Shown: in pieces, positions 6,673-11,473 of the stretch
Numbering within the stretch: the stretch's first letter is position 1
Layout of the letters: the number at the start of each line of letters is the position of its first letter
Source of the DNA: Sphingomicrobium marinum
GTDB taxonomy: Bacteria > Pseudomonadota > Alphaproteobacteria > Sphingomonadales > Sphingomonadaceae
Length of the DNA: 64,000 bases
NCBI RefSeq assembly: GCF_026157105.1
Contig: NZ_JANPVQ010000001.1
Span: 427,501-491,500 of the forward strand
Direction: 5' to 3'
Made by a program: the position numbers and the translations under genes
The notes under the pieces: generated by a model
Told to the model about the DNA's origin: nothing
The model's input: only the letters and a program-made list of their open reading frames with translations
Database searches by the model: none

Positions 6673-8721
6673 ATGGACAAAAGCGGCGAATATCTGGCGT
6701 TCCTGAGCTACAGTCATCGCGACAAGCAGTTTGCGAACTGGCTGCACCGCGCGCTTGAATTTTATGCGCTGCCAAGCAGGCTCGTTGGGCGCGATAGCCG
6801 CCTTGGGCCAATTCCGCGCCGCATCCGCCCGATCTTCCGCGATCGTGAAGAGCTGGCGGCCGCCGAAAATCTCGGGCGGCGGCTGGAATCGGCGCTGGAA
6901 AATTCCAAGGCGCTGATCGTCCTGTGTTCGCCGGCTGCCGTCGCATCGCGCTGGACCAACGAGGAAATTGCGACCTTCAAGCGGGTCAATCCGGGCGCGC
7001 CGGTCTTGGCGGCCATCATCGACGGCGAACCGTTTGCCAGCGATATGGCGGGGCGCGAGGACGAAGAATGCTTCCCGCCCGCGCTTCGTTACAAGCTCGA
7101 CGCGGAAGGCCAGCTGACCGACCAGCGCGCCGAGCCTGTTGCCGCCGACTTCCGCGAAGAAGGCGACGGCAAGCGGCTTGGGAAACTGAAGCTGATCGCC
7201 GGATTGTTCGGGCTTGGCCTCGATGACCTCGTCCAGCGCGATGCGGCGCGGCGCAACAAGCGCTTCGCTTGGATCGCCGCAGCCTCCGCGCTCGGCATGG
7301 TCGGCACGACCGGTTTGTCACTCTACGCCATCGACCAGCGGGAAGAAGCGATTGAACAGCGCGAACAGGCCGATGGTCTGATCGAATTCATGCTGACCGA
7401 CCTGCGCGAGAAACTCGAGCCGGTCGGGCGGCTCGACGTGCTCGAAGCGGTCGGTGATCGCGCGCTCGATTATTATGCACAGCAGAAATTGGCCGATCTC
7501 GATGCAAACGCGCTGGGGCGGCGCTCGCGCGCGCTTCACCTGATGGGCGAGGTTTCGATGTTGCGCGGTGATAACAAGATGGCGCTTGAGGGCTTTCGCA
7601 ATGCGGCCGCTACGACGGAAGCGCTACTGGAGCGCCAGCGCGACGACTGGCAGCGGATTTATGATCACGCGCAAAGCGTCTTCTGGGTTGGTTATCTGGC
7701 TGACGAGCAGGGACGACAGGATGAGGCATTGGCGAGGTTTGTCGAATATCGCAATTTGACGGCGCGGCTGGTGGAAATAAAACCCGACGATCGGGCATCG
7801 CAACTGGAGGCCTCTTACGGGCCCATTAATCTTGGCTATGCCTATCGTAAGCACCGGCGGTATGACGAAGCACTGAGGGCCTTCGAAGAAGCCCAGAAGC
7901 GCCTTGCCGCGATCAACCCGCCCGATCGCGATACGTTGCTCACGATGGTACAGACCCACGCGCACAGCGCCACGATCTATACGTCTGACGGGCAGATCGA
8001 GAAATCGATAGATGCGAGGCAGCGTCAACTCGAGGCACTGGATCACGACTTGCTCGACCAGAGCGACGCGGCGGTAAGAGAAATGCGAGGATATGGAGAG
8101 GCCAATCTTTCCATGTCCCACTTCGTCCGAGGCGATTTGTCAAAAGCCGACGAATGTCTCGCCAAGGCAGAAGCAATCTTTGCCGATCTTTCGACCACAG
8201 AACCTGGCAACCAAGAATGGCGGGAAACACGCGCAAACTCGCTGGTAAGTCGAGGGCTGATCGAGCTTGCCCGTGGCGAGCGGACCGCAGCACGCGGAAG
8301 GGCGATCCAAGCGACCGCCGACATTCGAGCGCTGCTCCAAGGGTCGGCCGACGACGTATCTCTTCAAAAGAAGCTGTTGGCGGCGCTCATGTTATCGGTG
8401 CTCAGTGGGAATCCCGTTGACGCACAGGAAGCGCAAAGGCTGGTCGCAGACTTGCGGGGTGGCGGCGGATTTCGCGACGATATTCAGTCGCGGCACAATG
8501 CCGCGACTTTACTGATGGCGCTTGGCGATCGAGCTGGGACGCCGGCCGAACGCAACTCATTGTGGAGCAAGTCTCGCACCATCCTTGAGCAAGCGGACGT
8601 CACCAATCCCTTTATCGCCTTGCCCCGCGCCGCGCTTGATCGGCGAAGCGGCACGAACACCACAAAACTTCCGCCGGGGTTCGATCCCGACTCGGCATTC
8701 GGAGGCATTTTTCGGGATTGA
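6673..8721 (+). CDS. TIR-domain membrane protein with C-terminal TPR-like repeats
   Basis: A 682-aa protein. Residues 6-130 are a TIR domain: first strand and helix YLAFLSYSHRDKQFANWL, BB-loop-like FRDREEL (55-61), and the W-x-x-x-E motif W94-E98 whose Glu is the NADase residue in catalytic bacterial TIRs. After a linker one membrane helix spans about 198-220 (FAWIAAASALGMVGTTGLSL), then a conserved-looking juxtamembrane block (FMLTDLREKLEPVGRLDVLE) and about 400 residues of helical TPR-like repeats (SRALHLMGEVSMLRGDNKMA, YRKHRRYDEALRAFEEAQ). From topology the TIR is expected in the cytoplasm and the TPR part outside it. It heads a likely three-gene operon with a small unknown protein and a SLOG-like 4-TM protein. 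TIR NADase or cyclic ADP-ribose synthase activity is inferred, not shown. Confidence 0.85.
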   Translation: MDKSGEYLAFLSYSHRDKQFANWLHRALEFYALPSRLVGRDSRLGPIPRRIRPIFRDREELAAAENLGRRLESALENSKALIVLCSPAAVASRWTNEEIATFKRVNPGAPVLAAIIDGEPFASDMAGREDEECFPPALRYKLDAEGQLTDQRAEPVAADFREEGDGKRLGKLKLIAGLFGLGLDDLVQRDAARRNKRFAWIAAASALGMVGTTGLSLYAIDQREEAIEQREQADGLIEFMLTDLREKLEPVGRLDVLEAVGDRALDYYAQQKLADLDANALGRRSRALHLMGEVSMLRGDNKMALEGFRNAAATTEALLERQRDDWQRIYDHAQSVFWVGYLADEQGRQDEALARFVEYRNLTARLVEIKPDDRASQLEASYGPINLGYAYRKHRRYDEALRAFEEAQKRLAAINPPDRDTLLTMVQTHAHSATIYTSDGQIEKSIDARQRQLEALDHDLLDQSDAAVREMRGYGEANLSMSHFVRGDLSKADECLAKAEAIFADLSTTEPGNQEWRETRANSLVSRGLIELARGERTAARGRAIQATADIRALLQGSADDVSLQKKLLAALMLSVLSGNPVDAQEAQRLVADLRGGGGFRDDIQSRHNAATLLMALGDRAGTPAERNSLWSKSRTILEQADVTNPFIALPRAALDRRSGTNTTKLPPGFDPDSAFGGIFRD

Positions 8722-8739
8722 CGCACAGGGAGAAGAACA

Positions 8740-9114
8740 ATGGCAGACAAAGCAAGAATTACGGTCACCCAGCAATCCGACGGCAGTTATTCGGCGTCGA
8801 TTGGGCCTGACAGCATTACCCCCGATAGTAACAAGGACATTAAGCTCGACATCGACACGTCCGGCTGGATGTTTGATTCGCAAGTCAGTGCGCCGCCCGA
8901 GGCCAACGGTTGGACATCGATCGGGTCGGGTATCTACGTCGAAAATGGCTCGGATTTCTCGCTGAAGAACGACTCCAATTCGACCAAAGCAAAGATCAAC
9001 GACACCGGGGCCGACAGGAGCGTCCATCCGACGCACAGATATCTCGTGTGTCTTACCGATGGGACAAATCACATCAATACGGACCCCATCATCATCGATC
9101 GTGATGGTAATTAA
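8740..9114 (+). CDS. Small soluble protein of unknown function in the TIR/SLOG operon
   Basis: A 124-aa protein that I do not recognise. It has no signal peptide, no membrane segment and a composition rich in Asp, Asn, Ser, Thr and Ile, suggesting an all-beta fold (alternating stretches such as ARITVTQQSDGSYSASIG and NTDPIIIDRDGN). One Cys near the C-terminus. The start has a strong AGGGAGAAG site (8727-8735) only 18 bases after the TIR stop, so it is almost certainly co-transcribed with it. Position between a TIR and a SLOG protein makes a sensor, adaptor or ligand-handling role worth testing. Confidence 0.75.
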   Translation: MADKARITVTQQSDGSYSASIGPDSITPDSNKDIKLDIDTSGWMFDSQVSAPPEANGWTSIGSGIYVENGSDFSLKNDSNSTKAKINDTGADRSVHPTHRYLVCLTDGTNHINTDPIIIDRDGN

Positions 9115-9129
9115 GGTCTGATCGGCAAA

Positions 9130-9157
9130 GCAGGGCGCCGGGGTACTGGCGCCTTGC
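9130..9157 (+). other. Stem-loop between the small gene and the SLOG gene
   Basis: GCAGGGCGCC (9130-9139) pairs with GGCGCCTTGC (9148-9157) through 10 pairs including one G-U, with an 8-base loop. No T-run follows, so it is not a standard terminator. It lies in the 96-base gap inside the putative operon and may set the relative output of the SLOG gene or protect mRNA ends. Confidence 0.5.
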
Positions 9158-9210
9158 CTTCCACTTGGAAATGTGGCGTGCTCGGGTGATGCGAGGGGGC
9201 ATTTTCTAGC

Positions 9211-11016
9211 GTGACGTCATCGAGCAACCAATATCGCCCGCGGCTCACTTTGCGCTTCGGGATCACCGGGCACCGTCCGCCGCGGCTCGATCTTGCGCAT
9301 AGCGATACGATCCGCACCGCGTGTGCCGAAATCTTCAACGTGGCGCGCGGCTCGCTGGTCACACTGCACTCGGCGCACAAATCGGTGTTCTCTGATGTTA
9401 CGCCCGAAGTGAAACTTGTCACCTCGCTGGCGGAGGGCGCGGACGTGCTCGCAGCCGAAGCTGCGCTCGACACAGGCAACGCCATCGCCGCCTGCCTTCC
9501 TTTTCCGCAAGATGTCTACGCCAAGGACTTCGGGGCGGAGGAATGGGCGCGTACCGAAAAAATGCTCGCCGCCGCCGACACGGTGATGTCGATCGACGAT
9601 CATTCGCAGGGCGAGACTGCGGCCTACGAAGCGGCGGGGCGTGTCGTGCTGGCGCAATCCGATATCCTCATCGCCATCTGGGACGGGGAAGCAGCACGCG
9701 GACGCGGCGGCACGACGCAGGTCATCGCCGAAGCGGTGGCGCTGCACCAACCCGTCATCCACATCGATGCCAAGGGCAAGAAGCCCCCCGAACTGCTGTG
9801 GAGCGGGCTTCACGAAGCGGTGCCAGATCGCCCCTCGCTCGACGGGGTGCAGCGGGCCGATGCGCGTCTCGCGCTGCCGCACCTGATCGAGGCGTTATGC
9901 GCGCCGCCCGATGGCGACGATGCGGCCGAACTCGCCAGCTTCATCGCGCCGCAGCACAGCAAACCCAAATCGTCGCTCGGGTGGCCGCTGCTGCTGGCGG
10001 CAACGGGCGCCAAGCCGTGGAGCAGGATCTCGACCCGGGCGCCGACGGCGGACGATAGTGCCCGCTGGCTAAAGCCGCACACCGAACCGTTTGCCCAAAA
10101 TGGGCGCTACGGCGAACGACTCAATGGCAGCATGCTGTGCCGGTTCGGACGGGCAGATGCCCAGGCCAACGATTTCGCGCTGCGGTTCCGGTCGAGCTTC
10201 GTGACCAATTTCGCGATGGCGGGCCTTGCTGTCTTTCTTGCCTTGCTGGGCCTGCTCATTCCCGAAGCGAAGAAACTGCTCATCGCACTCGAACTGCTGG
10301 TGATCCTCCTGATCATCGCCAATACCCGTTTTGCCAATCGCCAGAATCTGCATCGCTGCTGGCTCGACCGGCGACATCTTGCCGAACGGCTTCGCTTGCT
10401 GGCGATGGCATCGCCGCTCGGACGGCTCAGCCTGCGCGATGTCGAGGACGGCACGACCCACCCGGGCTGGGTCAGCTGGTATGCGCGCGCTTCCGCACGC
10501 GAGCTGGGACTAGTGCGCGCGACCTTCGATCGCGCCTATCTGCAAAAGGTGCGCGGCGTGATGCTCTCGTTGATCGACGAGCAGCTGGGCTACCACAAAG
10601 GTAATGCCCATTCGATGCACCATGCCAACCACCAGCTGCACCGCGCCGGCGACCTGCTGTTCGTCGGCACGATCATCGCTTGCGTCACCTATCTCGCGAT
10701 CAGCTTCGGCTTCGGCAAGGTGGGCGATGTTTTTGGCATGAGCGGCACGGGATTGGTGACCTTCATCACCGCCCTGTTCCCGGCGCTGGCGGCGGCGCTG
10801 TATGGCATCCGCATGCAGGGCGACTTCGCAGCGACTGGCGAACGCTCGGCGGCAATCTCCCACCAGCTCGGCAAGCTGCGCAATGCGCTGGACGCTGACC
10901 CGCTATCCTTCGACCGGCTGGCAGAACGCTCGCGGCGACTTGGCGAGATCATGTTATCCGAAGTGCAGCAGTGGCACCTGCATTACGAAACGCGGCCGAT
11001 GACGCTGCCGGGCTAA
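9211..11016 (+). CDS. SLOG-like domain protein with four C-terminal membrane helices (SLATT-like)
   Basis: A 601-aa protein. The N-terminal 200 residues look like a SLOG/LOG-type Rossmannoid domain: first strand and loop RLTLRFGITGHRPPRL (GITGHR at 17-22), SLAEGADVLAAEAAL, and the late SDILIAIWDGEAARGRGGTT loop before a helix. Two hydrophobic hairpins follow at about 331-373 and 480-537, separated by a helical block (WLDRRHLAERLRLLAMASPL) that recalls SLATT 2-TM effector domains, and ending in a helical tail. SLOG modules are known to bind nucleotide-derived ligands, and SLATT domains are predicted pore-type effectors. The start is GTG at 9211 with GAGGGGG upstream; no in-frame ATG exists before about residue 118. 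Confidence 0.7.
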   Translation: MTSSSNQYRPRLTLRFGITGHRPPRLDLAHSDTIRTACAEIFNVARGSLVTLHSAHKSVFSDVTPEVKLVTSLAEGADVLAAEAALDTGNAIAACLPFPQDVYAKDFGAEEWARTEKMLAAADTVMSIDDHSQGETAAYEAAGRVVLAQSDILIAIWDGEAARGRGGTTQVIAEAVALHQPVIHIDAKGKKPPELLWSGLHEAVPDRPSLDGVQRADARLALPHLIEALCAPPDGDDAAELASFIAPQHSKPKSSLGWPLLLAATGAKPWSRISTRAPTADDSARWLKPHTEPFAQNGRYGERLNGSMLCRFGRADAQANDFALRFRSSFVTNFAMAGLAVFLALLGLLIPEAKKLLIALELLVILLIIANTRFANRQNLHRCWLDRRHLAERLRLLAMASPLGRLSLRDVEDGTTHPGWVSWYARASARELGLVRATFDRAYLQKVRGVMLSLIDEQLGYHKGNAHSMHHANHQLHRAGDLLFVGTIIACVTYLAISFGFGKVGDVFGMSGTGLVTFITALFPALAAALYGIRMQGDFAATGERSAAISHQLGKLRNALDADPLSFDRLAERSRRLGEIMLSEVQQWHLHYETRPMTLPG

Positions 11017-11026
11017 AGGGGCCCGG

Positions 11027-11473
11027 CTAGCGCTTCTTGCGCGGCCTCCGCCCTTTAAGGTGCCAGAATTTTTCCATGTAAAGATAGGTCATCGACGCGG
11101 TCCAGCCGACCATTACAAGCCCGTTCAGGGCAGACACACCCGCAATGATGCGGATCGCGCCTGTCGGTATAAGGTCGCCTATACCGAGCGTGGTGTAGCT
11201 TGTGACGGAGAAATAGAAGGCATCGCCAAGGTCATGGCCTACAGGGCCATCAATGCTGCCGAAACCGCCAAGCCGCTCAAGCCAGAGAAAGGCGACCGCA
11301 TATAGAAGGCAATGTGCGAGGTGGCTGACGAGCGCTGCGGTGAGCATGATGATGATCCGCATGCGCGGCGGCACCCGCAAATGGGTCAGGTTGTTCGAAG
11401 TGAAGCGCAGCACCTCGTAATGGATCGCGATGGTCGCAGCGACGAGGACGAGACAGACGAGCGCGGTGAGCAT
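11027..11473 (-). CDS. Potassium-channel-like pore protein
   Basis: A 148-aa membrane protein with three hydrophobic helices (about 3-23, 39-67, 105-130) and a K+ channel selectivity filter TLGIGD at residues 95-100, preceded by the pore helix FYFSVTSY. The C-terminus is basic (KGRRPRKKR). No RCK or cyclic-nucleotide domain follows, so it looks like a minimal ion-channel family member. The ATG at 11473 was chosen because anything longer would be antisense to the DUF4212 gene; no strong ribosome site is visible. It converges with the SLOG gene and is divergent from the symporter operon. Confidence 0.8.
   Translation of the reverse strand: MLTALVCLVLVAATIAIHYEVLRFTSNNLTHLRVPPRMRIIIMLTAALVSHLAHCLLYAVAFLWLERLGGFGSIDGPVGHDLGDAFYFSVTSYTTLGIGDLIPTGAIRIIAGVSALNGLVMVGWTASMTYLYMEKFWHLKGRRPRKKR

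Follow-up and report, generated by a model that had tools for sequence, protein, structure and literature searches.

A recurring pairing of TIR and SLOG-SLATT genes in Sphingomicrobium marinum and its relatives, with a candidate Thoeris-like mechanism

A stretch of 64,000 nucleotides from Sphingomicrobium marinum (contig NZ_JANPVQ010000001.1, positions 427,501 to 491,500; "the window" hereafter) carries three consecutive genes on the plus strand. These encode a TIR protein with a transmembrane segment and TPR repeats (TIR-TPR; P0001), a small protein (P0002) and a protein in which a predicted SLOG domain precedes two predicted membrane hairpins related to SLATT domains (SLOG-SLATT; P0003). The pairing of a TIR gene with a SLOG-SLATT gene is conserved far beyond chance. 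The reading we favour, by a modest balance of probability, is that the pair is the core of a Thoeris-like two-component system with accessory proteins, in which an ADP-ribose derivative made by the TIR protein would gate a SLOG-tethered membrane effector. An earlier note on this DNA, made from the sequence alone, had placed the three open reading frames correctly, and its description of them as operon-like is fair judging from the shared strand and the gaps of 18 bp between the TIR and small-protein genes and 96 bp between the small-protein and SLOG genes. A scan for promoters and terminators gave no signal exceeding that of shuffled sequence.

The pairing was surveyed in relatives whose genes were called by a simple script, with TIR domains detected by a home-made profile that was checked against Pfam on examples. 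TIR-TPR homologues were found in 45 of the 71 genomes of the genus and SLOG-SLATT homologues, with strong E-values, in 51. Both were present in 41 genomes and neither in 16, while 4 held only the TIR-TPR gene and 10 only the SLOG-SLATT gene (Fisher p=3.7e-6, the related genomes being non-independent). A TIR gene lay within 4 kb of the SLOG-SLATT gene at 31 of 33 loci in the genus and at 23 of 38 loci in the rest of the family. Beyond the family the TIR model detected one at 3 of 9 loci, and Pfam added a TIR-FGE protein (L152) and a SIR2-TIR protein (L153), giving 5 of 9. Chance would be expected to yield about 2.5, 1.2 and 0.35 loci in the genus, family and distant sets, respectively, with TIR counts that were assumed generously. 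One genome outside the class (L159) has the identical order of TIR-TPR, small protein and SLOG-SLATT. The pairing, which recurs in dozens of related bacteria and in some distant ones, is probably real, and the possibility raised in the earlier note, that the genes are not co-conserved elsewhere, did not materialize. As in Thoeris, the TIR gene stands beside the gene of a putative effector, here one whose SLOG fold predicts a nucleotide-binding domain.

The type of TIR partner changes repeatedly while the SLOG-SLATT protein stays. In addition to TIR-TPR with the small protein, the partners include other TIR-TPR proteins, TIR-FHA proteins with a Ser/Thr kinase and PP2C (L056, L062-L066, L114, L135, L139), TIR-FGE, and SIR2-TIR with an nSTAND1 neighbour. 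A plasmid of Caballeronia has SLOG-SLATT together with a TIR and, next to that TIR, an nSTAND1-WD40 protein. A FastTree phylogeny of 79 SLOG-SLATT proteins, whose long branches leave the deep placements unsure, requires at least 19 changes in partner label (mean of 41 with shuffled labels). It is mainly because sensors swap around a constant SLOG-SLATT protein that the two are read as a signal and receptor pair.

P0001 (682 aa; positions 6673 to 8721, plus strand) has a TIR domain at residues 10-118 (Pfam TIR_2, E=2e-12; ThsB_TIR, E=1.9e-10), a weak transmembrane segment at residues 199-217 and a TPR-like C-terminal part (TPR_2, E=1.4e-7). The W-x-x-x-E motif reported in the earlier note was borne out, as W94 and E98 are invariant in 30 of 30 aligned TIR-TPR relatives. 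Profile matches were obtained to the plant TIR structures Roq1 (75-124 to 43-92) and RPP1 (84-122 to 124-162). Provided that these equal-length stretches are ungapped, E98, which is profile position 118, corresponds to Roq1 E86 and RPP1 E158, which are the catalytic glutamates of these plant TIR NADases. Thus, the glutamate needed for NAD cleavage is invariant in the alignment rather than absent, and with the TIR fold and the conserved WxxxE glutamate in place, NAD+ cleavage is predicted. The transmembrane segment is moderately hydrophobic (mean 1.36), a segment at the same position occurs in most of the 30-sequence family, and its N-terminal flank is net positive, which predicts a cytosolic TIR domain and an extracytoplasmic TPR part.

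P0003 (601 aa; positions 9211 to 11016, plus strand) was modelled with AlphaFold2 at a mean predicted local distance difference test score (pLDDT) of 87. The best match of the model in the PDB was Bacillus subtilis YpsA (E=4e-4, probability 1.0); DprA and LOG-type proteins (1rcu, 5zi9) ranked next, and viral SLOG proteins were matched in BFVD. For this reason the N-terminal domain (about residues 1-235) is assigned to SLOG, in agreement with the earlier note, which had made its proposal depend on this fold. The predicted fold is Rossmannoid, and the GITGHR and GxGGT motifs of the superfamily are conserved. GITGHR occupies residues 17-22 (positions 9259 to 9276, plus strand); G17 and G20-R22 are invariant in 31 aligned proteins, together with G76, D78, W157-G159, G164 and G166-T168. 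LOG enzymes have a catalytic glutamate three residues past the T of PGGxGTxxE. In the family alignment this glutamate is absent and V, I or T stands in its place, so a receptor role is likelier than LOG activity.

The two membrane hairpins noted earlier in P0003 correspond to four hydrophobic segments, at residues 332-350, 356-374, 482-500 and 515-533. P0003 itself matched the SLATT models weakly (SLATT_3, E=0.007, under the cut-off). SLATT_1 was passed by the Caballeronia relative (L140; 45.3 bits against a cut-off of 41, in two stretches), and L159 came just under it (38.4 bits, also in two stretches). The DUF4231 cut-off was passed by relatives L110 and L140. Because these relatives pass curated cut-offs, the architecture of P0003 is predicted from sequence to be SLOG, DUF4231-like (332-374) and SLATT_1-like (482-533).

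P0002 (124 aa; positions 8740 to 9114, plus strand) gave no family match over a curated cut-off; the earlier note had called it an unknown soluble protein. The window copy is predicted to be a beta-sandwich (pLDDT 83). Its closest structure was Vibrio cholerae MakD (6tct), a weak match that is suggestive at most (E=5e-3, TM-score 0.52, root-mean-square deviation 7.9). Phage_TAC_10 was rejected (Pfam E=0.007, under the cut-off, with no support from relatives), as was a link to PixA/AidA, a lead for which a literature search gave no support. The family, named after a common C-terminal DPII-type motif, is occasionally duplicated, and some copies have a C-terminal transmembrane segment. At two loci (L047:8119-8622 and L049:2348-2866) second copies with a lipoprotein-type signal stand beside a signal-less first copy. 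By the labels of the tree, the small protein adjoins TIR-TPR in 25 of 29 SLOG-SLATT loci of that type and in 0 of the 50 others, and it still accompanies TIR-TPR at loci that lack the SLOG-SLATT gene. The three-gene system of the earlier note holds in part: TIR and SLOG-SLATT are the conserved core, often with a channel gene, and the small protein is confined to the TIR-TPR branch. The family also diverges fast. When the window is compared with its nearest relative, identity is 65% for the small protein, 92% for the TIR protein and 96-97% for the SLOG and SLATT parts, and the nonsynonymous divergence (dN) of the small protein is 0.30 against 0.018 for SLOG, more than tenfold higher. The ratio of nonsynonymous to synonymous divergence (dN/dS) is 0.29; being below 1, it indicates fast evolution and does not support positive selection. 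The exclusive linkage of the small protein to TIR-TPR and its fast evolution suggest that it confers specificity on the sensor or regulates it. Many copies are without a signal peptide, which is unexplained if the TPR part is periplasmic.

A fourth gene, left out of the earlier note, lies on the minus strand at positions 11027 to 11473, convergent with the SLOG-SLATT gene. Its 148-aa product is a K+-channel-like pore protein that matches Ion_trans_2 (E=4.6e-11, over a 141-residue part) and is similar to solved K+ channels. In 121 genomes of the family, matches to this channel subfamily below 1e-20 were found in 8, and in 7 of these 8 the gene stands beside a SLOG-SLATT gene. It is adjacent in 19 of the 79 SLOG-SLATT loci, in either orientation, and the channel label changes 8 times on the tree. 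It is a probable accessory component.

The favoured mechanism would operate as follows. When its TPR part is triggered, the membrane-anchored TIR protein, both sensor and enzyme, would cleave NAD+ and make an ADP-ribose derivative. The SLOG domain of P0003 would bind this product as a receptor rather than an enzyme. Binding would rearrange or cluster the DUF4231 and SLATT hairpins, and the inner membrane would be permeabilised or depolarised. The K+-channel-like protein may share in the ionic response or set it, and the small protein may be a specificity factor, inhibitor or ligand through which the TIR-TPR sensor is tuned or triggered. Phage infection is a plausible trigger, and envelope or osmotic stress is equally so.

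Several results weigh against this mechanism. First, it is built from sequence and predicted structure. Secondly, when solved structures were searched with the sequence profile of P0003, no SLOG domain was among the matches, which left no basis for setting the ligand pocket against that of ThsA. Third, the genome of the window itself (G000, 2.24 Mb) has 14 TIR-domain genes for a single SLOG-SLATT gene, which means that the pair need not be exclusive. Fourth, three near-complete genomes (G065, G066 and G068) keep TIR-TPR and the small protein while SLOG-SLATT is missing or distant. Lastly, no TIR was detected near about 40% of the SLOG-SLATT loci outside the genus, and at some of these the adjacent genes are instead of patatin, RyR, caspase-like or trypsin-like type.

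Individual loci of these kinds were also recorded. In G000, TIR-domain genes lie for example at C1:953067-957359, 996412-1003526 and 1817761-1819862 (L172, L173, L177), and several of the 14 form tandem arrays of TIR-transmembrane proteins. At L179 (the G000:C1:2049619 region) a TIR-FHA gene stands beside a Ser/Thr kinase, the variant linked to SLOG-SLATT at other loci, with no adjoining SLOG-SLATT. At L071, L072 and L073, TIR-TPR and the small protein occupy the usual slot, with no SLOG-SLATT before the S1/P1 nuclease gene. Where no TIR was detected, SLOG-SLATT is adjoined by patatin-like phospholipases at L154 and L156 and by RyR-domain proteins, one of them fused to TrkA_N, at L155 and L156. 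2'cADPR and 3'cADPR, isomers of cyclic ADP-ribose (cADPR), are bound or cleaved by RyR-domain proteins of phages (PMC13232231), and so these RyR genes fit an ADP-ribose-type ligand, circumstantially.

The strongest alternative, which we regard as a serious if lesser possibility, is a physiological circuit for stress or ion homeostasis, in which the same relay would serve envelope, osmotic or K+ signalling; it is compatible with the mechanism above and differs in purpose. The setting of the locus favours such a circuit. The neighbours in the window are nhaA and a sodium/solute symporter, and in most members of the genus the locus is flanked on one side by ispG/EamA-type genes and on the other by Band_7, abhydrolase, S1/P1 nuclease or asparaginase genes. 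Of 50,697 phage records none matched the SLOG-SLATT protein, and of 72,556 plasmid records 4 did; a mobile origin was rejected on these counts. The locus is chromosomal and mostly inherited in place, unlike the usual mobile defence island. The linked K+-channel-like gene, the variant with TIR-FHA, Ser/Thr kinase and PP2C, and the occurrence of SLOG-SLATT, with strong E-values, in 51 of the 71 genomes of the genus point in the same direction. However, known bacterial TIR-effector pairs are antiphage (PMC12847820, PMC11204291), the divergence of the small protein between near relatives suggests conflict, and the frequent sensor swaps and the TIR-rich genome also speak against such a circuit. The three conditions that the earlier note set for its own refutation all came out in its favour, and the signalling from TIR through SLOG to the membrane that it proposed is therefore well supported as an inference; its defence function is less so, given the fixed slots among housekeeping genes and the scarcity of phage and plasmid matches.

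An improbable alternative is that the TIR protein is itself the effector and depletes NAD+ when triggered, with SLOG-SLATT as a regulator, an immunity factor or an independent second output. Direct effector action by TIR NADases is established (PMC12847820), and the three genomes in which TIR-TPR and the small protein persist without a close SLOG-SLATT would be in keeping with it. However, an association that outlasts so many changes of partner label and extends beyond the class fits a signal-receptor pair better. Slightly less probable is a receptor-type TIR pathway in which a periplasmic TPR part would read the hypervariable small protein or its ligand, the cytosolic TIR domain would make an ADP-ribose isomer, a SLOG-gated membrane channel with its K+ channel partner would give a graded ionic response, and one SLOG-SLATT might serve many TIR sensors of the same cell. 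If true, this would be a regulated counterpart to suicidal Thoeris. A doubtful alternative has the SLOG domain removing the TIR signal as an enzyme, either a phosphoribohydrolase of LOG type or one that processes ADP-ribose, which would make the membrane protein a signal terminator. The structural relatives of the domain include LOG enzymes, and viral SLOG proteins have been proposed to degrade such signals (PMC9503650), but the replaced glutamate and the best match to YpsA, not a LOG enzyme, argue against it. That the genes share no function and adjoin by chance or history is very improbable and nearly refuted by the survey. In its favour, close relatives keep gene proximity through common descent, and the sample is dominated by one genus. 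Against it, the linkage recurs with different TIR types, slots and genera and beyond the class.

Returning to the favoured mechanism, the cassette is Thoeris-like in logic and lacks the effectors that define types I, II and IV. In type I (ThsB TIR with SIR2-SLOG ThsA), as here, a TIR gene stands beside a SLOG-domain gene, with SLOG the predicted receptor in our case. However, no SIR2 was found in P0003, the output would be two membrane hairpins, the TIR protein is membrane-anchored with TPR, and the small protein and channel gene are extra. In type II (ThsB with transmembrane-macro ThsA) a soluble domain likewise reads the TIR signal, His-ADP-ribose (PMC12847820), and drives membrane segments (PMC11204291). 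The receptor here is SLOG, no macro domain was found, and the soluble domain comes first, followed by four transmembrane segments; the fold differs and the ligand probably does as well. The window cassette has no caspase-like effector as in type IV; in the relative L126, a caspase-domain gene (L126:3377-5476; 699 aa, Peptidase_C14) lies two genes from SLOG-SLATT. Type VI and other TIR-effector pairs (Yirmiya 2025), as far as they are cited in PMC13232231, share TIR-based cADPR signalling in bacteria and may overlap with the system described here.

The closest precedents are the SLOG/SLATT systems predicted by Burroughs, Aravind et al., in which SLOG is a sensor and the two-transmembrane SLATT domains are predicted membrane effectors. 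TIR-SLATT neighbourhoods have been described in firmicute phages (PMC9503650), and SLATT as an ADP-ribose-regulated membrane effector is a published concept (PMC9503650, PMC7159879). Here, SLOG, DUF4231 and SLATT_1 appear in one protein, accompanied by a TIR-TPR protein and a small beta protein, a distinction drawn without the architectures of the 2015 primary paper. In TRPM2-type channels a SLOG-like soluble domain that senses ADP-ribose-type ligands is joined to membrane segments; SLATT hairpins are not a TRP pore, and this likeness is no more than a lead. No system model was matched in PADLOC, which gave weak TIR-domain matches, and NCBIfam likewise names no such system; its Thoeris type III ThcB4 and FxsC models were rejected as far under the cut-off. 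A literature search, which did not take in the original SLOG/SLATT paper or a 2025 preprint on TIR systems, found "SLOG-SLATT" and "TM-SLOG" unused for such an effector. The word "undescribed" in the earlier note is less well supported: TIR-SLATT and TIR-SLOG pairings had been predicted and in part described (PMC9503650, PMC7159879), and newer types of Thoeris exist.

The cassette offers a concrete, conserved test case for the predicted gating of SLATT-type membrane effectors by SLOG domains through TIR-made nucleotides, and it connects the pathway with a partner protein that evolves fast and with a K+-channel-like gene. If the proposed mechanism is true, TIR signalling would extend to a fused SLOG-membrane receptor, and the path from TIR signal to membrane potential would be testable with two to four genes.

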